Shown one piece after another: positions 7,686-19,322 of a DNA stretch of 39,272 nt. The DNA is taken from contig CAISJD010000087.1 of assembly GCA_903885605.1 (NCBI GenBank), positions 1-39,272 on the forward strand. The letters run 5' to 3'. This DNA is from an uncultured Chthonomonas sp. (GTDB taxonomy: Bacteria > Armatimonadota > Chthonomonadetes > Chthonomonadales > CAJBBX01). Both the position numbers and the translations under genes were made by a program. Each line of letters opens with the position of its first letter. Within the stretch, counting starts at the first letter, position 1. Below the pieces are notes generated by a model that made no database searches, was not told the origin of the DNA, and was given only the letters and a program-made list of their open reading frames with translations.

Positions 7686-7752
7686 CAACCCGGCCAACAA
7701 GGTCAACAAGGTCATAAAGTCTTTGACGTTATTGACGTTGTTGACCGGGTTG
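7686..7752. terminator. Long inverted repeat with 9-nt internal periodicity, between convergent genes
   Basis: Arms of about 32-34 nt meet around 7719. CAACCCGG (7686-7693) pairs perfectly with CCGGGTTG (7745-7752). The inner part pairs with a few isolated mismatches (7694/7744, 7701/7737, 7707/7731, 7710/7728). The left arm contains AACAAGGTC twice in tandem, and the right arm has three 9-nt units beginning TTGAC. It fills the gap between two convergent genes, so a bidirectional terminator is the simplest role. Its size and internal repeats also fit a dispersed intergenic repeat. Confidence 0.7.
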
Positions 7753-7766
7753 TCAATGACAGGGAA

Positions 7767-9668: not shown

Positions 9669-9680
9669 TAGCCGGGTAGC

Positions 9681-10943
9681 CTACTTCGTCTCGATCCGGT
9701 AGACGGCAGCCTTGGTGCGCACGAAGAGCGTCTTGCCGACCGCCACGGGCGAGGCCATGCAGCCTTCGGGCAGTTCGCTCTCGGCAATCACCTTGAACTC
9801 GGGACCGGGGTCCAGCACGTAGCCGCGGCCCTGCTCGCTGAACAGGTAGATGCGGCCGTCGGCGAGGATGGGGCTGGATGAGTAGGTGCCCGTGAGCCGC
9901 TCCTTGTAGACGGCCTTGCCCGTGGCGGCCTCAAGGCAGGTGAGCGTGCCGGAGTCGGCGATCACGAGGATGCGGTCTCCGAGCAGGATCGGCGAGGGCT
10001 TGCTGGGCATACCCCGGTCCAGCTCCCACGCCACGTGGGTGGCGGTCACGTCGCCGCTTCCGCCCAGACGGATCGCCAGCATGTGCGACGAGTCGAAGCC
10101 CGTGCTGACGTAGACGCGCTCGGCGTCGACCAGCGTGCGCGAGGCGTTGGAGTAGCCGCCGTGCCGCACGCGCCAGATCTCCTGACCCGTGGCCGGGTCA
10201 TAGGCGAAGACGCCCATGGCCGCCTGGCAGATGAGCTGCTGCTTGCCCTGGTAGCCGGCGAGCACGGGCGTGTTGAAGCACTTGCGGCGGTCGAAGGCCA
10301 CCGAGGCGGCGGGGCCGCCGGTGCGGTCTGCCGTCCAGACCGTGGCGCCGGAGGTGAGGTTCAGGCAGTAGGTTCGCTGCGTGTCGGTGCCGTCATACGT
10401 CAGGAAGAGGCGGTCGCCCACCAGCAGCGGCGAGGAGCCGGGGCCTACCATGTGGTCGCAGTTCAGATCCGTGCGCTGCCAGAGCTGCGCCAGGGTCTTG
10501 TTGTCGAAGCAGGCCGTGCCGTGGGTGCCGAAGTGGACCACCACGCGCCCGCGGCCCGCCACCGGAGACGGCGACGCCCAGCTGTTCGTGGGGTTGAAGT
10601 CGCCCGGCGACGCGGGCTGGAAGAGGACCTTGTCCAGCAGCACCTTGCCGCTCTGGCGGTCGAGGCAGAGCACCGACATGGCCTTGCCGTCCTCGGTGGC
10701 CGTGGTGAGCCAGAGCCGTTGCCCGTAGACCACCGGCGTCGACCAGCCGCGGCCGTGGACAGGCGTCTTCCAGACGATGTTGCTCGTTTCGCTCCACGCG
10801 GTGGGCAGGCCCTTCGCCACAGCGGCTCCGGTGCGCGCCGGACCACGGTACTCGGGCCATTCCGGCTCGCCGGTCTGAGCGCCCACACAGGACGCCGCCA
10901 GCGACAGGCCGGCCACCAGCGCACTCATCACTGCAGACTTCAC
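9681..10943 (-). CDS. Secreted PQQ-binding-like beta-propeller protein
   Basis: The protein is 420 aa from a GTG start at 10943, chosen because GGAGGAG lies 9 nt upstream and the following residues form a signal peptide (VKSAVMSALVAGLSLAASCV, then GAQ). The mature protein opens with EPEWPEYRGPARTG, close to the WPQWRGPxRxG opening of PQQ-like propeller proteins. Blades with tryptophan-docking-type repeats follow (IVWKTPVHGRGWSTP, LVGDRLFLTYDG, IWRVRHGGYS, LLGDRILVIADSG, LADGRIYLFSEQG, AVGKTLFVRTK). Such proteins assemble outer-membrane machines or bind ligands, and few are true quinoprotein enzymes. No quinone-site cysteines or metal ligands were recognised. It is divergent from the GH36 gene across 119 bp that would hold both promoters. 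Confidence 0.85.
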   Translation of the reverse strand: MKSAVMSALVAGLSLAASCVGAQTGEPEWPEYRGPARTGAAVAKGLPTAWSETSNIVWKTPVHGRGWSTPVVYGQRLWLTTATEDGKAMSVLCLDRQSGKVLLDKVLFQPASPGDFNPTNSWASPSPVAGRGRVVVHFGTHGTACFDNKTLAQLWQRTDLNCDHMVGPGSSPLLVGDRLFLTYDGTDTQRTYCLNLTSGATVWTADRTGGPAASVAFDRRKCFNTPVLAGYQGKQQLICQAAMGVFAYDPATGQEIWRVRHGGYSNASRTLVDAERVYVSTGFDSSHMLAIRLGGSGDVTATHVAWELDRGMPSKPSPILLGDRILVIADSGTLTCLEAATGKAVYKERLTGTYSSSPILADGRIYLFSEQGRGYVLDPGPEFKVIAESELPEGCMASPVAVGKTLFVRTKAAVYRIETK

Positions 10944-11062
10944 GGGTCGTATCTCCTCCGGCGGATGGTTCACCTTGCGGGCGGAGGATACCCCACCTCG
11001 GAGGAGTGGCGTGCAGGTGACGAGCGCTCCGATGCCGAACCTTCGGGCAGAGGTACGCGCCC

Positions 11063-13555
11063 ATGCTTCCATGCATCGCAGGATTGGGAGGTCTACTGGC
11101 CATGAGCCCCGCCCGACCGGTCTGTCTGCCCACTCCGGCCGAGATGGCCGACGCACGCGACTGGGTTGCGGCCCACCTTCGGAGGCCCTCCGCTCCCGCG
11201 CGGAAGGCGGCGCCCCTCGCCCCTACGGCCGGGCTCACCGTGCTGGCGAACCACGGCCCCGTGCAGCCCAACGCCCGAGGCGGCGCGCCGCTCCGCATCG
11301 GCGGCGTGGACTACACCCACGGGCTCTACTGCCACGCGCCGAGCAGGGTCGTGGTGCGGCTGCCCGGTCCCGGAGAGCGGCTCACGGCGCGCATCGGCAT
11401 CGACGACCATGCCAACGGCGGCACCGTCGTCTTCAGCGTGCGCGTGGGCGGGGTGCAGGCCTACCGTTCCGGCGTGGTGACCTGCGGCAAGCCCGCCGAG
11501 GCCGTCGACGTGCCCCTCTCCGGCGCCTCCGAGTTCACGCTGGACGCAGGCGACGCGGGCGACGGCATCTCCTGCGACCAGGCCAATTGGGCCGACGCCG
11601 TGGCAACGCTGGCCGACGGCCGGTCCGTGCGGCTGGGAGACCTGCCCCTGGCATCCGAGGCGCCGCGGACGCGGACGGTCTACGGGCTCCCCTTCTCCTT
11701 CACCTACGGCGGCGTGCCGTCTGATGAGCTGCTGCCGGCCTGGCAGTTCGCGAGCGCCACGGCCAAGCTGCCCGGCGGCCGCACACGACGCACCCTCACC
11801 TTCACCGAGCCGGGCCTGGGGCTTGAGGTCACCTGCACCGCCGTCACCTACGCCGACTACCCGGTGGTCGAGTGGACGCCGGCCTTCCGCAACCGGTCCG
11901 AGGCCCGATCGCCCGTCATCGAAGGCGTCCGCTCGCTGGACGTGCGCCTGGATCGCCCCGGCAAGGGTGCTCTGGAGCTACGCCGCTGGCTGGGCAGCAT
12001 CTGCGCCGCCAACGACTACGAGCCCATCGTGGAGCCGATGGCGCCCGGTTCGACGCGCCACGTGGCCACGCAGGGCGGCCGGCCCACCAACAGCGACATG
12101 CCCATGTTCAACCTCGCCGGGCCCGGCGGCGGCGCGCTGGTCGTGATCAGTTGGGCCGGACAGTGGTCCGCCGACTTCCTGCGCGACGCCTCCGGCCGCC
12201 TGCGGGTCTGCGGCGGACAGGAGCGGACGCGGTTCGTCATGGAGCCGGGCGAGGAGCTGCGGAGCGCCATGGGCGTGCTCCTCTTCCATCGCGGCGACCC
12301 GGACCGCGCGCAGAACCTCTGGCGGCGCTGGATGGTGGCTCACAACCTGCCCCAGCCCGACGGCAAGCCGATCAAGCCCATGCTCTCCGCCTGCAACGGC
12401 AACCACTACCCCGGCATCATCACGAACGCAGCCGAGGAGCAGCTCTTCCTGAGCCGATACCTCGAAGAGGGCGTACGGCCCGAGTTCTGGTGGCAGGACG
12501 CCGGCTGGTACCCCTGCGACCCGGACGGCTGGCCCAAGACCGGCACGTGGGAGGTGGAGCCGAGCCGCTGGCCGAAGGGCATCCGCGGCGTCAGCGACTG
12601 GGCTCGGCAGCGGGGCATTCGCACCATCGTTTGGTTCGAGCCCGAGCGCGTGGCGGCGGGCACCTGGCTTGCCGAGCGGCGTCCGCAGTGGATCATCGGC
12701 GGCAAGGCGGGCGGCCTCCTGCGGCTGGGCGACCCCGAGTGCCGATCCTGGCTGGCCCAGCACATCGACCGGCTGATGACTGATCAGGGCATCGACCTCT
12801 ACCGGCAGGACTTCAACATCGACCCGCTGAGCTACTGGCAGTCGGACGACGCCGACGACCGCCAGGGCGTGGCCGAGATGCGCCACGTGGCGGGCTACCT
12901 CGCCTACTGGGACGACCTGCTGCACCGGAGGCCAGGGATGCTCATCGACTCCTGCGCCTCGGGAGGCCGCCGCAACGACCTGGAGACGTTGCGCCGCGCG
13001 GTTCCGCTGCTACGCAGCGACTACACCTTCGAACCCGTGGGCGAGCAGTGCCACACCTACGGCATCGCCTCCTGGATCCCCTTCCACGGCACGGGCTTCC
13101 TGACCTGCGACAAGTACCTCATCCGCAGCCAGATGTCGCCCGAGTTCACCATGGGCGTGGATACGCGGCGCAAGGACCAGGACTACGACCTGCTCCGCAA
13201 AATGGTCGACGAGTGGCGGCGCGTGGGCCCCTGCCAACTGGGCGACTACTGGCCGCTGACGCCCTACAGCAAGGCCAACGACGCCTGGATGGCCTGGCAG
13301 TTCGACCTGCCCGAGGAGGGCCGAGGCGTGGTGCAGGCCTTCCGCCGCGCCGACTGTCCCACCGATAGCCTGCGCGTGAAGCTGCGCGGCCTCGACCCCG
13401 CATCGGTGTACGCCGTGGACGACATGGACGGCGGCCCGGCCCGCACCCTCACAGGCGGCGCGCTCATGGACGAGGGGCTGGAGATACGCGCAGCGGAGAA
13501 GCCCGCCGCCGTGACGTTGTGCTACGCGGCAAAGAAGCCGGAAGGCGGGAGGTGA
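11063..13555 (+). CDS. NPCBM-domain GH36 alpha-galactosidase
   Basis: The protein is up to 830 aa. Residues about 55-190 form an NPCBM-like domain (GGVDYTHGLYCHAPSRVVV, ANGGTVVFSVRVGG), a putative carbohydrate-binding module. Residues about 200-430 are the GH36 beta-supersandwich, followed by the catalytic barrel. The barrel shows WWQDAGWYP, RTIVWFEPERV, LYRQDFNIDP (D583, expected nucleophile), IDSCASGGRRNDLETLRRA and LLRSDY (D653, expected acid/base). The enzyme should release terminal alpha-galactose from oligosaccharides. An alternative ATG at 11102 has GGGAGG 10 nt upstream and removes 13 residues. Neither start gives a convincing signal peptide, so export is unclear. The next gene begins 4 nt after its stop, consistent with co-translation. 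Confidence 0.9.
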   Translation: MLPCIAGLGGLLAMSPARPVCLPTPAEMADARDWVAAHLRRPSAPARKAAPLAPTAGLTVLANHGPVQPNARGGAPLRIGGVDYTHGLYCHAPSRVVVRLPGPGERLTARIGIDDHANGGTVVFSVRVGGVQAYRSGVVTCGKPAEAVDVPLSGASEFTLDAGDAGDGISCDQANWADAVATLADGRSVRLGDLPLASEAPRTRTVYGLPFSFTYGGVPSDELLPAWQFASATAKLPGGRTRRTLTFTEPGLGLEVTCTAVTYADYPVVEWTPAFRNRSEARSPVIEGVRSLDVRLDRPGKGALELRRWLGSICAANDYEPIVEPMAPGSTRHVATQGGRPTNSDMPMFNLAGPGGGALVVISWAGQWSADFLRDASGRLRVCGGQERTRFVMEPGEELRSAMGVLLFHRGDPDRAQNLWRRWMVAHNLPQPDGKPIKPMLSACNGNHYPGIITNAAEEQLFLSRYLEEGVRPEFWWQDAGWYPCDPDGWPKTGTWEVEPSRWPKGIRGVSDWARQRGIRTIVWFEPERVAAGTWLAERRPQWIIGGKAGGLLRLGDPECRSWLAQHIDRLMTDQGIDLYRQDFNIDPLSYWQSDDADDRQGVAEMRHVAGYLAYWDDLLHRRPGMLIDSCASGGRRNDLETLRRAVPLLRSDYTFEPVGEQCHTYGIASWIPFHGTGFLTCDKYLIRSQMSPEFTMGVDTRRKDQDYDLLRKMVDEWRRVGPCQLGDYWPLTPYSKANDAWMAWQFDLPEEGRGVVQAFRRADCPTDSLRVKLRGLDPASVYAVDDMDGGPARTLTGGALMDEGLEIRAAEKPAAVTLCYAAKKPEGGR

Positions 13556-13558
13556 ACG

Positions 13559-15841
13559 TTGGCTGCATCGGTATGGGCAATGGCTGCGGCGCTGGCCTGC
13601 GCGGCGCCGGGCATGTCCGCTGAGGCGGCGCCCTTGAGGGGCTTCCGAGCGGCAACCGGGGAGTACTCCGTGGCCTTCGAGCCCGGCAAGCCCTGGGTCT
13701 CGATCAGCCGACGCGGCAGCGCGGGCGAACTCCGATGGGCTCCGGGCGGCGGCTCCGAGGCGCTGCCGTTCCTCCAGGGCGCCAACCTGCAGGAGGTGAA
13801 GCGAACGCGAGACCGCACCGGCGTTACCTACACCCTCGCCGGAAAGCTGGGCTGGACTCGCTACACCGTGGGGATCGCGCTGCCCGCCGGTGCGCCGGGG
13901 CTCATCCGAACGTGGCTCGACCTGGCCGACGCCGAACCGAAAGCCGCCCGCGAGGCCCTTGGCCGCGCCCTGCCGGAGCTCTGGTACGCCGACATTGCCG
14001 ACGGCCCGGCCGACCCGCACGCGGCCTTCTACTTCGAGACACCCGTGCCGCACCCGATCAAGATCTGGCACTGGCGCCGCGATATGAACCAGTTCGTCCA
14101 CTTCGGCGACCGGCGCATCCTCCGCTCCACGCTGCTCTACTACGCCGACTTCACAGCGATGGATGCCGCCTTCCAGGCCTGCGGTACGGCCATCTACAAG
14201 AGCGTGACCGGCTGGGAGGTGCATGACGACATCGTGGCCCAGCCGCCGGGCGCCTTCGGCGAGGCCGGCGGCGGACCGTTCCGCTTCGGCCTGCAGATCC
14301 CCGCCCCCAAGCAGGAGCCGACGGCCCGGAACTTCCGCGTCTCGGCGTCCATGCTGAACCTCGAGCCCGGTGCGCCGGAGGTTGCCCCCACGCCGGAGCC
14401 CGCCCGCCGCTTCTTGCGGGGCTACCGGCGCATCTTCGCCCAGGCGCCCAAGCCCGAGTACCGGTTCCGTAACTGGGAGGAGATCGGCCGCACGCTCTAC
14501 CGGCAACTCGGAGCGCGAAAGGACCCGGACTGGGTCTACTGGACCCTTGCCACGCCCCACTTCAACCAGCTTCCCTTCATCGACTACGTGCGCCGGTACA
14601 TGCCCGAGGTGGAGGCCAAGACCCTCGACATGGCTGTGCGGCAACTGAAGCCCGGCTTCGCGCCGAACTACGTCAACGACTTCGGCAGCAAGGGCGGCTA
14701 CGGCTGGTACCCCACTCGCGAAGCGGCGGCCAAGGTGGACTTCTGGCAGGGCTACCTCTGGCCGATCTACATCCTGAACGAATACGCCATGGCGCAGGGC
14801 GACGGCGACCTGAAGAAGGCCTCGCTGGGCGTGACGCCCGTGCTGCTCGACCTGGGCCGCAGGATGGACTACACCTGGGGCGTCTTCGTCGACCTGAACG
14901 CCGCACGCAACGTGGAGACCGGCTACGACCTCGACTACGGCGTGGCGGGCCTCTATGCGGCGGTGATGCTTCAGTACCACCGCCTCACGGGCGAGGCCCG
15001 CTACCTGCGGGAGGCCCGGAGCGCCGCCGACAGGCTCACCGGCTTCGGCTACGGCGCGGGTTTCGAGATCCAGATCCCGGCCCTCTCCGCCCTGACGCTG
15101 CTCCGGCTCTACGAGCTCACCGGCGAGAAGCGCTACCTGGACGGCGTCGATGTGCAGCTCGCAGTGATCATGAAGCATACGTGGCTCTTCAACCCACACT
15201 ATGGCCAGTTCGTCGGGCGCGACCTCTTCGGCCTCACCAGTTGCCGGGCCAACCTCTGCTATGCCAACGGCGCCGAAGAGGGGATGCTCATGCGGCTTCT
15301 GCGCGCCTGCCTGGACGAGGGCCGCGACCGGCTGGAGCCCGCGAACCGGCGGCTCATCGCCGACCTGCTCCGGTGGAAGGCGCACAGCTGGGCCGACGCC
15401 CTGGCGGCGCTGCAGCCCGACAAGTCGGTCCTCTTCATCGGCCAACCCGAGAACTGGGACCCGGTCCAAGCGGACAGCGTGGTGCCGCTGGAGCCCTTCG
15501 GCTACAACCTGGACGGCAAGAAGCTGGGCTTCCTGAACGAGTGCATCTACGGCTGCAACCTCATCGCCGAGGCGGCGCTGATGCAGTTCCACCCCGTGGG
15601 CGGCGGACGGCTCTACACGGAAGGTCCCGTCGACCTGACCGCGAGCGACGGCCGATGGAGACTGCGGCTACCGGTGGCCTCAGGTCCCATGCGTGTGGCC
15701 TTGCAGGCCCCCGGCCTGGAAGTGCGCGCCGCCAACGGCCGCCCCGCCCCGCGCGACACCCGCCCCGGGGAGCCGGGCTGGACCTGGTACCTCCTGCAGC
15801 CGCATAGGAGCTACGCAGTAGGCAAGGCGACCGGCCGGTGA
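13559..15841 (+). CDS. Unclassified secreted (alpha/alpha)-toroid hydrolase-like protein
   Basis: This 760-aa protein is read from a TTG codon with GGGAGG 6 nt upstream. Its N-terminus is signal-peptide-like (MAASVWAMAAALACAAPGMS). Residues about 25-250 look like a beta-sandwich. Residues about 280-650 have paired helices with conserved aromatics (YDLDYGVAGLYAAVMLQYHR, RYLREARSAADRL, LSALTLLRLYELTGEKRYLD), typical of alpha/alpha-toroid glycoside hydrolases and lyases. A short beta domain follows. I cannot assign a named GH or PL family and no catalytic residues are proposed. Its start lies 4 nt after the GH36 stop, so it is almost certainly co-expressed with the alpha-galactosidase and may act on the same glycan. 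Confidence 0.75.
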   Translation: MAASVWAMAAALACAAPGMSAEAAPLRGFRAATGEYSVAFEPGKPWVSISRRGSAGELRWAPGGGSEALPFLQGANLQEVKRTRDRTGVTYTLAGKLGWTRYTVGIALPAGAPGLIRTWLDLADAEPKAAREALGRALPELWYADIADGPADPHAAFYFETPVPHPIKIWHWRRDMNQFVHFGDRRILRSTLLYYADFTAMDAAFQACGTAIYKSVTGWEVHDDIVAQPPGAFGEAGGGPFRFGLQIPAPKQEPTARNFRVSASMLNLEPGAPEVAPTPEPARRFLRGYRRIFAQAPKPEYRFRNWEEIGRTLYRQLGARKDPDWVYWTLATPHFNQLPFIDYVRRYMPEVEAKTLDMAVRQLKPGFAPNYVNDFGSKGGYGWYPTREAAAKVDFWQGYLWPIYILNEYAMAQGDGDLKKASLGVTPVLLDLGRRMDYTWGVFVDLNAARNVETGYDLDYGVAGLYAAVMLQYHRLTGEARYLREARSAADRLTGFGYGAGFEIQIPALSALTLLRLYELTGEKRYLDGVDVQLAVIMKHTWLFNPHYGQFVGRDLFGLTSCRANLCYANGAEEGMLMRLLRACLDEGRDRLEPANRRLIADLLRWKAHSWADALAALQPDKSVLFIGQPENWDPVQADSVVPLEPFGYNLDGKKLGFLNECIYGCNLIAEAALMQFHPVGGGRLYTEGPVDLTASDGRWRLRLPVASGPMRVALQAPGLEVRAANGRPAPRDTRPGEPGWTWYLLQPHRSYAVGKATGR

Positions 15842-15872
15842 CGCTCCCAGACGCGGCGCGGGAGATGCGCCC

Positions 15873-15929
15873 GAGGCCTGGCCTTTGACCTTACTGGCAC
15901 CAATGACACTGAGGGCAGTGGGGTCGAGG
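15873..15929 (+). repeat. 57-bp direct repeat, upstream copy
   Basis: It begins GAGGCCTGGCCTTTGACC and ends GGGGTCGAGG. All 57 bases recur at 18304-18360 in the same orientation, 2431 bp downstream, and identity stops exactly at both ends. Within it CTTTGACCTTACTG (15883-15896) pairs with CAGTGGGGTCGAGG (15916-15929), giving 14 bp with four G-U pairs and a 19-nt loop. It lies 31 bp after the stop of the 13559-15841 gene and 60 bp before the start of the orphan gene. Confidence 0.95.
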
Positions 15930-15989
15930 AAAAAACGGGTAAAGTAGCTCAGGCGAGCCCGACCCCCCGAGACCTGTGGAGGTGCTGAA

Positions 15990-18305
15990 GTGGACCACCC
16001 GGACCGTGACTTGACGCCGTTTTTCGCCGACCTGCTGCTGATGCCCGCCGCACAGGCGGCGGTGGCGAAGGCGCTGGCACTCGACACGGCCGCCGTCGCC
16101 CCCGGCGCGGCGCGTGAGGCGCTGCTGGCCGAGCATGGCGCCGAGGTGCGAAGTGCGCTTGATGCTCTGGTCCTCGCCGAAGCTGAGCCCGTCTACACGC
16201 TGGGCGGCTACGGCAACCTCGACCTCACCGTGATGCGCTACGGCCCCGTCTGCTTCGTTACGGCTGAAGGGCATGAGCCCTCCGGTTACATGGCCGACGC
16301 CGACACCGCATGGGACTGGGCGATGGAGCAGCACGCCGATGATATCCAGCCGCCGGACGACAAATGCCCGGTCTGCGGCACCGCCACCAACTACGAGCGC
16401 TACCGCGCCAAGCCCTGCGGCCATATGTTCCTGACGTATGACGTGACCTCCGGAGGCGAGTACTCCGGAGGCAATCCCTTTCGCGTGATGTGCGCCGATG
16501 GCATCGTGTTCGACACACCTGACCTTGATGTCCTCGCCCGCTCCTATCGGGCACTGCCGGAGTGGGTTCCCTACGCCATGATCCACGAGCGCGCCACAGC
16601 ATGGCACTGGCCGGATCAGCTAATCGGCGACCTGATGATCGAGATCACGGCGCCCAACGAACAAGGGGACGAGCGTGACACCGGGCAGGACTTCCGAGCT
16701 ACAGAGACCTATCTTCGGGATGTCATCGACGATCTGACCGGTTACGCCTACTGGACAGCCGTTGGTATCGATGTCCCAATGGTGAGTCGGTCGTTTGCAG
16801 TGCTCTGGGTAGACGACCCGGCATCGTTGGACACCGCGCTTCGTGCCAGAGTCGTCGAGCATACGAACGCGGTACTGGAGTTCGTCAGTGCGGTCACGTC
16901 AGATCGTGCGATAAGCTTCCGGGAGGAGACGTTCCTCAATGCCGACGACCTGCTGTACCGTGGCTGGACCCTTCCGATGATCCGCGAACTGATGCCGGAA
17001 CCCGATGGCGACGGGCCTCAGTACTACGAGCAACGCGTGAACGCCATCGAGGCGACGGCGAGGTTCCGGATGCGCGTCCGCGCCGCGGTGAAGGCCGGCG
17101 ACCTCGACGATGTCATTGCGCAGGAGATACTGGATCGGTCCGACGAGATGAAGCAGGCCGGAGCGGTCTGGCCGTTGCCGGCGCACAAGCCGGAGCCCAC
17201 CGTGGTTGCGGCGGCACGGTGGCAACGAACTGCCCTCGACACCGGATTCGTCTGCTCGGTCACCTTCCCTGGGTTTCTCGAGGATGATGAGTGCGACATT
17301 TACTATAGTAACACGGACGTAAAACAGATTTTATACACACGTTGGGGTTCAGGAATTACCGTTGAGCGACCGGGCTGCCTTGCTGTTGTGGACGCAGTGA
17401 ACGCGATGATGCCCGAGATGGTTCGGTCACTCGTCCTGAGCGGCCATCAACCCAGGTTCGGCGGCGCGGGCATTGTAAGCGCCGACGCCTTCCACGCGTG
17501 GGAGGTCGAGGCGGTCCGAGAGCGTGAGGCTACCCGGGTGGCCAATGAAGCCAACCGGAGCTCACCGATCGTGCAACTGGCGGAGAAGCTTGGGTTGCAT
17601 CCGAAGCCGAGCGAGTGCACAGCAGACCTCTGGGAGGCTGCCGGCCCAGACGGGCGGTGCGGCCTGAGGCTCGACACGAACCATGGCATGTTCAAACACC
17701 CCACCAGTGCCCGAACCGGCGACGGCGAAGCGCTGCGCAACTGGGTGGCAGACGTGGCAACAGCGAAGGCCGCGTTGCGAGCGGAGAACGAACGCATGCG
17801 TGCCGAACCGATCGTGCAGGCAGCCATGCAGGCGGGACTGGAGCCATATCCGAGCGACTCGGGGAACGGCGTCTGGTACGCCTCATGCCCGGCAGGTCAC
17901 CGCCTGATGGAGTTGAGGCCGAGGGACAGCAGGTTCTACTGCGTCTGGTGCAAGAGCGGGGGCACAGCACGCGGCTTGCCGGCTTGGGTCAATGCGAAGC
18001 GTAGAGCCCCCGCCGAGCGTGCTGCCGCCGAGGCCGCAAGGCGGGCCGAGCAGGAAGCAGCCGCCGACGCTATGCGCGCCGCCAACGCGGCGGATCGCGA
18101 GGCACAGATGGTCCGGTTGGCCGTTGAACTCGGGCTTGCGCCGGAGCCGAGCGACAGGACCGCAGGTCTCTGGCTCTCCCCTTGCCCCGCCGGCGGACAC
18201 GAGCTTGAGATTCGGCCGCGCGAAAGGGTTTTTGACTGCGCGCACTGCCGCAGGCGCGGCGGCGTGAACGCACTGGCCCGGTTCGTGGCAGAACGCCGGG
18301 GCTGA
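15990..18305 (+). CDS. Orphan protein with N-terminal zinc knuckle and tandem CHC2-like zinc modules
   Basis: This 771-aa protein is not a family I recognise. It starts at a GTG with GGAGG 7 nt upstream. C126-x2-C129 and C143-x-H145 form a probable zinc knuckle. Residues about 315-360 (LLYRGWTLPMIRELMPEPD) look like a small helix-turn-helix-like module. The C-terminus has three related modules at about 525-586, 606-667 and 706-767. Each begins with a helix and LGLxPxPS or a close variant. Modules two and three carry zinc-ligand sets C633/H637/C651/C654 and C732/H737/C750/C753. That order, followed by a small GG turn, resembles the CHC2 zinc finger of DnaG-type primases. The first module has lost the set. 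Alanine- and charge-rich helices link the modules. Nucleic-acid binding is inferred and no nuclease, polymerase or ATPase motif was seen. The gene is less GC-rich than its neighbours, with an AT-rich patch near 17300-17340, and 57-bp repeats bracket it. Confidence 0.85.
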   Translation: MDHPDRDLTPFFADLLLMPAAQAAVAKALALDTAAVAPGAAREALLAEHGAEVRSALDALVLAEAEPVYTLGGYGNLDLTVMRYGPVCFVTAEGHEPSGYMADADTAWDWAMEQHADDIQPPDDKCPVCGTATNYERYRAKPCGHMFLTYDVTSGGEYSGGNPFRVMCADGIVFDTPDLDVLARSYRALPEWVPYAMIHERATAWHWPDQLIGDLMIEITAPNEQGDERDTGQDFRATETYLRDVIDDLTGYAYWTAVGIDVPMVSRSFAVLWVDDPASLDTALRARVVEHTNAVLEFVSAVTSDRAISFREETFLNADDLLYRGWTLPMIRELMPEPDGDGPQYYEQRVNAIEATARFRMRVRAAVKAGDLDDVIAQEILDRSDEMKQAGAVWPLPAHKPEPTVVAAARWQRTALDTGFVCSVTFPGFLEDDECDIYYSNTDVKQILYTRWGSGITVERPGCLAVVDAVNAMMPEMVRSLVLSGHQPRFGGAGIVSADAFHAWEVEAVREREATRVANEANRSSPIVQLAEKLGLHPKPSECTADLWEAAGPDGRCGLRLDTNHGMFKHPTSARTGDGEALRNWVADVATAKAALRAENERMRAEPIVQAAMQAGLEPYPSDSGNGVWYASCPAGHRLMELRPRDSRFYCVWCKSGGTARGLPAWVNAKRRAPAERAAAEAARRAEQEAAADAMRAANAADREAQMVRLAVELGLAPEPSDRTAGLWLSPCPAGGHELEIRPRERVFDCAHCRRRGGVNALARFVAERRG

Positions 18306-18360
18306 GGCCTGGCCTTTGACCTTACTGGCACCAATGACACTGAGGGCAGTGGGGTCGAGG
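18304..18360 (+). repeat. 57-bp direct repeat, downstream copy
   Basis: It is identical to 15873-15929. Its first two bases are the last two of the TGA stop of the orphan gene (18303-18305), so the repeat begins inside the stop codon. The hairpin arms are 18314-18327 and 18347-18360. The next gene starts 95 bp further on, at 18456. A gene that ends where the repeat begins recalls the layout of gene cassettes. Confidence 0.95.
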
Positions 18361-18455
18361 GCATGGGCGGCGGCGGGGCGTTGCTGCCGTTCGCCTCGCC
18401 TCGCTTCGAAACGCCGACCGACGGCTTTCCGTCTACAGGATGGAGGGCTCTCACC

Positions 18456-19322
18456 ATGACCGGTTTCGGGATACCTACGCCGGGCGAGGAAGGACGACAG
18501 CCGTCGCAGATCGGCTTCCAGGCCCGGCGAAGGCCTGCGCGGATGCTGGTAGCGGCCCTGCTCGCCTCCGTAATCGCTGTGGCCCTGGCGACGCTCATCA
18601 CGCACCGGGCCAGTCGCGAGGTCGCCGTCGAGGCGCAAGTCTGGCCACCGTCCGGCGGGCCTACGGCCGTGGCGCCTGCTCGGACGACCGAGAGTGTCTC
18701 AATCGTCACCGAGGAGCCGAGCGCGGGCATCGTCTGGGTCCCCCTGGTGCTGGTCGGCGGGCTGGGGGTCGCCTTCGCTGTCTGGCGGTACCGCTCAAGC
18801 TCTCGCATGCGCTTCCTGGGAGAGGTGACGGATGTGGCCGTCGCCGGACGCCTGGCACAAGCGCTCTGGCAGGGCGACCTCTACCTCGCCACCGAGGCCG
18901 AGGAGGCGCTCATCGGACTGCTGCCCCGCTTCAAGGCGTCCGACGCCGGTTGCCTGTCGGATGCGCAGCGCGCCTGCCTGCACCGCACACTGCGCGCTCC
19001 CAAGCGACGGCGCGAGGCCGACCTGATCGTGGCCGTCATCGGCGCCCTGACCGAAATCGGCGACGCCAAAGCCCTGCCGCATGTGGAGAGGCTTGCCGAG
19101 GAGAGCGCCCGCACCGAGGCCCAGCGGCTGGTGCAGCGCGCCGCCATGGAGGCGCTACCCGCCCTGCGCGACCGCATCGAGCTGGCCCGCGCCGCCCGGA
19201 CGCTCGTGCGGCCCGCCCAGGCCGGTCCGGGAGCCGACACGCTGGTGCGCCCCGCGGCACCCAGCGCGGACACTCCCGTTGAGCTGCTCGTGCGTGCCTC
19301 CAGCGCCCCGCCCGAGGCCTGA
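18456..19322 (+). CDS. Two-TM membrane protein with HEAT-like cytoplasmic domain
   Basis: This 288-aa protein starts at an ATG with GGAGGG about 9 nt upstream. A hydrophobic segment at about 29-46 (MLVAALLASVIAVALATLI) and a second at about 90-108 (GIVWVPLVLVGGLGVAFAV) flank a periplasmic loop. The rest is a helical domain with paired repeats resembling HEAT repeats (ALIGLLPRF, ALTEIGDAKALPHVERLAEE, RAAMEALPALRDR). The tail repeats a TLVRPA motif (RTLVRPAQAG, DTLVRPAAPS). HEAT-like proteins are protein-interaction scaffolds, and no enzymatic residue was seen. It directly follows the 57-bp repeat. Before insertion of the repeat-flanked cassette it may have followed the 13559-15841 gene. Confidence 0.7.
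   Translation: MTGFGIPTPGEEGRQPSQIGFQARRRPARMLVAALLASVIAVALATLITHRASREVAVEAQVWPPSGGPTAVAPARTTESVSIVTEEPSAGIVWVPLVLVGGLGVAFAVWRYRSSSRMRFLGEVTDVAVAGRLAQALWQGDLYLATEAEEALIGLLPRFKASDAGCLSDAQRACLHRTLRAPKRRREADLIVAVIGALTEIGDAKALPHVERLAEESARTEAQRLVQRAAMEALPALRDRIELARAARTLVRPAQAGPGADTLVRPAAPSADTPVELLVRASSAPPEA

Follow-up and report, generated by a model that had tools for sequence, protein, structure and literature searches.

Two identical direct repeats of 57 bp bracket a single orphan gene in a 39,272-nucleotide stretch of DNA from an uncultured Chthonomonas sp. (the whole stretch is called the window here, and its genome G000), which raises the question of whether the bracket is the footprint of the gene's arrival. 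The arrangement is as an initial sequence-only reading had described it: the copies have the same orientation, differ at 0/57 positions and are spaced 2431 bp apart (15873-15929 and 18304-18360), with one ORF between them (15990-18305, 771 aa, GTG start), and the downstream copy overlaps that ORF's TGA stop codon (18303-18305) from the second base of the codon onward. The lower GC content claimed for the gene also held, at 65.3% (GC3 0.77) compared to 69.6-72.4% (GC3 about 0.90) in its neighbors. The features discussed below are as follows.

7720-7764, + strand: intergenic and weakly matching member of the TTGAC nonamer family (14.5 bits, E 0.25)
11063-13555, + strand: melibiase-like (GH36) gene, immediately ahead of the single palindrome in G002
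13559-15841, + strand: left neighbor, GH127-like by a sub-threshold match only; block inverted in G001, missing from the G002 locus
15873-15929, + strand: upstream 57-bp copy, palindrome core 15882-15929; neither G001 nor G002 shows a counterpart
15990-18305, + strand: orphan gene (771 aa) with a distant phylum homologue of its N-terminal domain and three related C-terminal repeats
18304-18360, + strand: downstream (older) 57-bp copy, palindrome core 18313-18360; orthologous single palindromes in G001 (L008, about 1655-1702) and G002 (L020, 10025-10063)
18456-19322, + strand: right neighbor; kept in both G001 and G002, where it immediately follows the palindrome

Both copies sit after stop codons, and each contains a hairpin that the sequence-only reading had not mentioned. 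In the downstream copy, the stem runs beyond the right edge of the repeat (past 18360), and its predicted fold is the stronger of the two (-45.6 kcal/mol, z -4.6, versus -30.9 kcal/mol, z -2.3, upstream); this predicted in-context stem is a first hint that the downstream copy may be the original. There was no third copy of the 57 bp in the 5.6-Mb G000 genome (211 contigs) and no match in viral contigs, and we therefore rejected the sequence as an exact dispersed repeat. As all other exact direct repeats of at least 50 bp in the 339 kb of G000 that we searched were confined to one local duplicated region, the window pair is not a product of chance. In that region (L067; G000 C4, 10945-15240), locally duplicated segments are spaced 2.45-2.5 kb apart and match exactly over stretches of up to 128 bp.

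The protein encoded between the repeats has few recognizable relatives. Searches against Pfam, NCBIfam, PADLOC, PHROGs and PDB sequences returned nothing significant, homologues of the gene gave no usable match on plasmids, phages or viral contigs, and the four-helix-bundle suffix domain TIGR04258, which recurs below, had no match in it. The N-terminal portion of the protein is similar to a small free-standing ORF from another Armatimonadota family (31%, E 1.8e-6). The C-terminus consists of three related repeats that are 32-39% identical, two of them with CxxC-type zinc-ribbon motifs. A full-length structure model was too poor to use (pLDDT 41.5); for a model of the C-terminal part (pLDDT 66.7), the top PDB match was a DNA primase zinc-binding domain, a match that is not significant (E 0.19). 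A nucleic-acid-binding role for the product would be a guess.

The history of the locus can be read from two relatives in the same genus, G001 and G002. These are about 94-95% identical to one another in shared stretches, and each is about 83-90% identical to the window; being closer to each other than to the window, they make G000 the outgroup of the three. The G002 locus runs from the melibiase gene straight into a single palindrome and on to the 18456 gene, and it lacks both the 13559 gene and the orphan. (The overlapping frame 18440-19282 was rejected as a protein: it is probably not coding, having stops in both relatives, and 18456-19322 is the coding frame.) G001 carries the block 9671-15845 in inverted orientation, and one inversion breakpoint falls in the gap that contains the upstream copy in G000. 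A remnant of the orphan persists in this genome: the segments corresponding to window positions 16005-16050 and 16090-16158 are kept (87-89% identical) and joined to the stop region, and they are followed by one palindrome directly before the orthologue of window position 18399 onward. Also in G001, what reads by eye as a decayed 3' end of a melibiase gene lies after the orthologue of the 13559 gene (L009, 11250-11420), which suggests an earlier duplication at this locus.

Because G001 still has part of the gene's 5' end and its stop region, followed by a diverged palindrome, the orphan was present at this place before the split of G000 and G001. The downstream copy is the old one, because both sister species carry a diverged single palindrome at that position. 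Orthologous downstream palindromes differ at 15/48 positions, whereas the two window copies differ at 0/57, so that either the upstream copy is recent or the pair has been homogenized. Barring gene conversion, the upstream copy would be a recent duplication that did not arrive with the gene. The sequence-only reading had stated that a repeat found nowhere else, together with a gene conserved in place across the clade, would refute its gene-capture proposal; that outcome did not arise cleanly, as the exact repeat indeed occurs nowhere else, but the gene is absent from G002 and reduced to a remnant in G001.

The 57-bp repeat belongs, as a diverged member, to a palindrome family confined to this genus, whose intergenic palindromes are ~44-48 nt long and built of nonamers of the TTGACNNNN type. 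Like the other members checked, the repeat forms a TTGACC...GGTCAA palindrome with a nonamer period and lies between genes. Family palindromes read as about five nonamers each, for example TTGACCTTA TTGACAGTA CTGACAGTA TTGTCAGTG AGGTCAA, and a pattern search found three more in G001, all 44 nt long. We trained a covariance model (R1) on four palindromes, one of them the window sequence, whose score of 69.4 bits is hence high by construction. At E <= 1, R1 had 11 matches in G000, 11 in G001 and 19 in G002, whereas nine further genomes from the same bacterial family yielded almost no matches. Most sites contribute a match on each strand; among the 150 candidates scored per genome, the threshold leaves about 6-15 sites in each. 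Members independent of the training set include C24 and C17 in G002 and C142 in G000. Arrays of at least four TTGAC-type words exceeded the Markov expectation, and all palindrome copies checked were intergenic. Rfam gave no match, and pair counts from four sequences are insufficient evidence that the stem is under selection.

Elsewhere in the genus, palindromes of this family stand in occupied and single states. At C24 in G002, a 252-aa gene lies between two palindromes, gene and palindrome forming an 813-bp unit, while at the equivalent sites G000 (C79) and G001 (C118) carry a single palindrome between matching flanks that are collinear over kilobases. Insertion in G002 is the simplest reading, because the outgroup and the sister both lack the gene. 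Its product combines the TIGR04258 suffix domain with a topoisomerase-type zinc ribbon, and relatives that are 81-82% identical lie between palindromes in different surroundings at C97 in G000 and C160 in G002; all three bracketed genes match TIGR04258. We rejected C97 as a second clean empty site, as its flanks are on separate contigs in both relatives. Tandem units of about 140 bp each precede a four-helix-suffix gene at the end of G002 C30 (L177), the start of C160 (L097) and G000 C97 (L087, 8911-9316); each unit comprises a palindrome and a stretch that we read as similar to the 3' end of a type I specificity-subunit gene.

At C17 in G000 (L080, about 116-1055), a DUF4926-DUF6883 gene pair is enclosed by 109-bp direct repeats that are identical at 103/109 positions, and the counterpart in G001 (C96) has one palindrome. 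A 234-aa orphan at C55 in G002 abuts one palindrome with no second one, and G000 C142 and G001 C157 have the palindrome without the gene. A lone palindrome of about 45-50 bp at G002 C116 (17147-17192) is absent from the collinear position in G001 (C18, 5856-5859), and one further site, C64:55514 in G002, is collinear with G001 C52 and unchanged. An indel or rearrangement thus coincides with the palindrome at 5/6 testable sites (C24, C55, C17/C96, C116/C18 and the window, but not C64:55514/C52), although the window and C24 led us to the family and are hence not independent; 3/4 sites changed when both are left out. At a random point, an alignment break falls within 70 bp in about 1.5% of cases (249 kb of compared contigs). 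Intergenic gaps, however, gather indels anyway, for which we estimate a rough 10% chance of a break per gap.

Genes with the four-helix suffix domain are also linked to nonamers beyond the genus. They occur in 47/291 Armatimonadota genomes, and a strong 9-bp DNA period was found around or inside 21 of 30 sampled suffix-domain genes compared to 14 of 183 control stretches drawn from 18 other gene loci and random G000 windows (Fisher p 3e-13, which is indicative, as these loci had already been inspected once when the threshold was set). Lags of 6-8 and 10-12 showed no comparable excess at these genes. Strict 9-bp arrays with lineage-specific units, such as ATAGGTCCT, GGTCGGATC and GGGACGACA, are seen at the TIGR04258 loci L134-L163. 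An open-access search found no description of nonamer arrays beside four-helix genes, and we came across no described role for four-helix-suffix proteins; if functional, the link would give these proteins a testable role.

These data favor a model in which the 57-bp repeat is a REP/MITE-like family palindrome with an ancestral downstream copy and an upstream copy that is recent or converted, the palindromes being hot spots of insertion and rearrangement; we consider this model probable. The downstream palindrome would have been resident behind the orphan gene, and in the G000 lineage a recent copy of it, extended by 9 bp of adjoining left-hand sequence, would have been placed upstream of the gene, unless an older upstream copy was homogenized by gene conversion. 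The palindromes probably extrude as hairpins. As hot spots, they would promote strand exchange, template switching and insertion, and single genes may in this way be gained or lost beside or between them; recombination between repeats could also delete a bracketed gene. We infer the hairpin extrusion, the copying mechanism and any factor acting in trans. By comparison of the three genomes, the bracket is therefore not the footprint of the orphan's arrival; most likely, an older gene became enclosed when the palindrome was recently copied nearby. Gene conversion could nevertheless keep two old copies identical, in which case the bracket would be ancestral. The palindrome family would flag points of single-gene turnover in a phylum that has received little study.

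We weighed this model against several others. Gene and palindrome might have entered as one cassette-like piece at a resident palindrome, through homologous or site-specific recombination of a circle. The 813-bp unit at C24, facing one palindrome and collinear flanks in G000 and G001, fits such an entry, as does the DUF4926-DUF6883 pair between its 109-bp repeats (103/109) with one site in G001; but the window orphan predates its identical repeats, C55 lacks a second palindrome, no homologue of the window gene was found on plasmids or phages, and the 57 bp contain no attC core, leaving this entry unlikely. An undescribed gene-capture arrangement, as the sequence-only reading had suggested, fares unevenly: it is weakened for the window gene, which is older than the identical repeats, and it is strengthened elsewhere in the genus, where palindromes bracket or abut single genes and relatives are gene-free with one palindrome. 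A gene-capture system in the genus is possible. One specific form of it, in which nonamer palindromes would be recombination sites of a non-integron hairpin system, four-helix-suffix proteins would help to move these sites, and the window orphan and the DUF4926-DUF6883 pair would ride in trans, each between two palindromes, we regard as doubtful.

It is very unlikely that the bracket is an assembly artifact, whether from 57 bp joining non-adjacent pieces or from a collapsed tandem unit. The repeat length is near common short-read k-mer lengths and G000 is in 211 contigs, yet G001 supports the downstream junction (remnant, palindrome, 18399 onward), and the repeat-gene-repeat structures at C24 and C17 have non-identical copies, which is impossible for joins at a shared k-mer. 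Similarly improbable is a hairpin that serves twice as a transcription terminator, with function keeping the copies identical. Both copies do follow stop codons and have a strong predicted hairpin, but no T-run follows the stem, no terminator-like prediction was obtained here, identity reaches 9 bp to the left of the hairpin, and orthologues differ at 15/48 positions. The model of a resident palindrome copied around an older gene thus remains the one we prefer.

Among described systems, integron cassettes share with these loci a single gene with an imperfect palindrome and occupied and empty sites in relatives. Unlike them, the palindromes here form no array; the attC core sites RYYYAAC and GTTRRRY are missing from the 57-bp repeat, as the sequence-only reading had stated, and there is no integrase among the window genes scanned. 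The 23S rRNA intervening sequences of Coxiella, in which an S23p ORF has tandem GACAGAT heptamers upstream (PMC4990558), likewise place a four-helix-bundle gene beside inverted repeats, along with short GAC-containing tandem repeats, but our palindromes are intergenic with nonamer arrays, and the window gene does not encode a four-helix protein. Bacterial MITE-like repeats (PMC2229807; MITEs of P. syringae, PMC3189936) are also small non-coding inverted-repeat units dispersed between genes; unlike those, the palindromes here have no known related transposase ends, and neither window copy is flanked by a target-site duplication readable from the sequence. REP elements (GTAG/CGTC superfamilies, PMC3733652) are, like the palindromes here, short, intergenic, often downstream of genes, lineage-limited and suspected to be small mobile elements. 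Our palindromes differ in their far fewer copies and nonamer build, and both strands of the 57 bp are free of GTAG and CGTC, the tags that are the REP hallmark; no enzyme was connected with the palindromes, and Y1_Tnp matches number two in G000, one in G001 and two in G002. Collectively, the best reading is that the palindromes are REP/MITE-like in kind.
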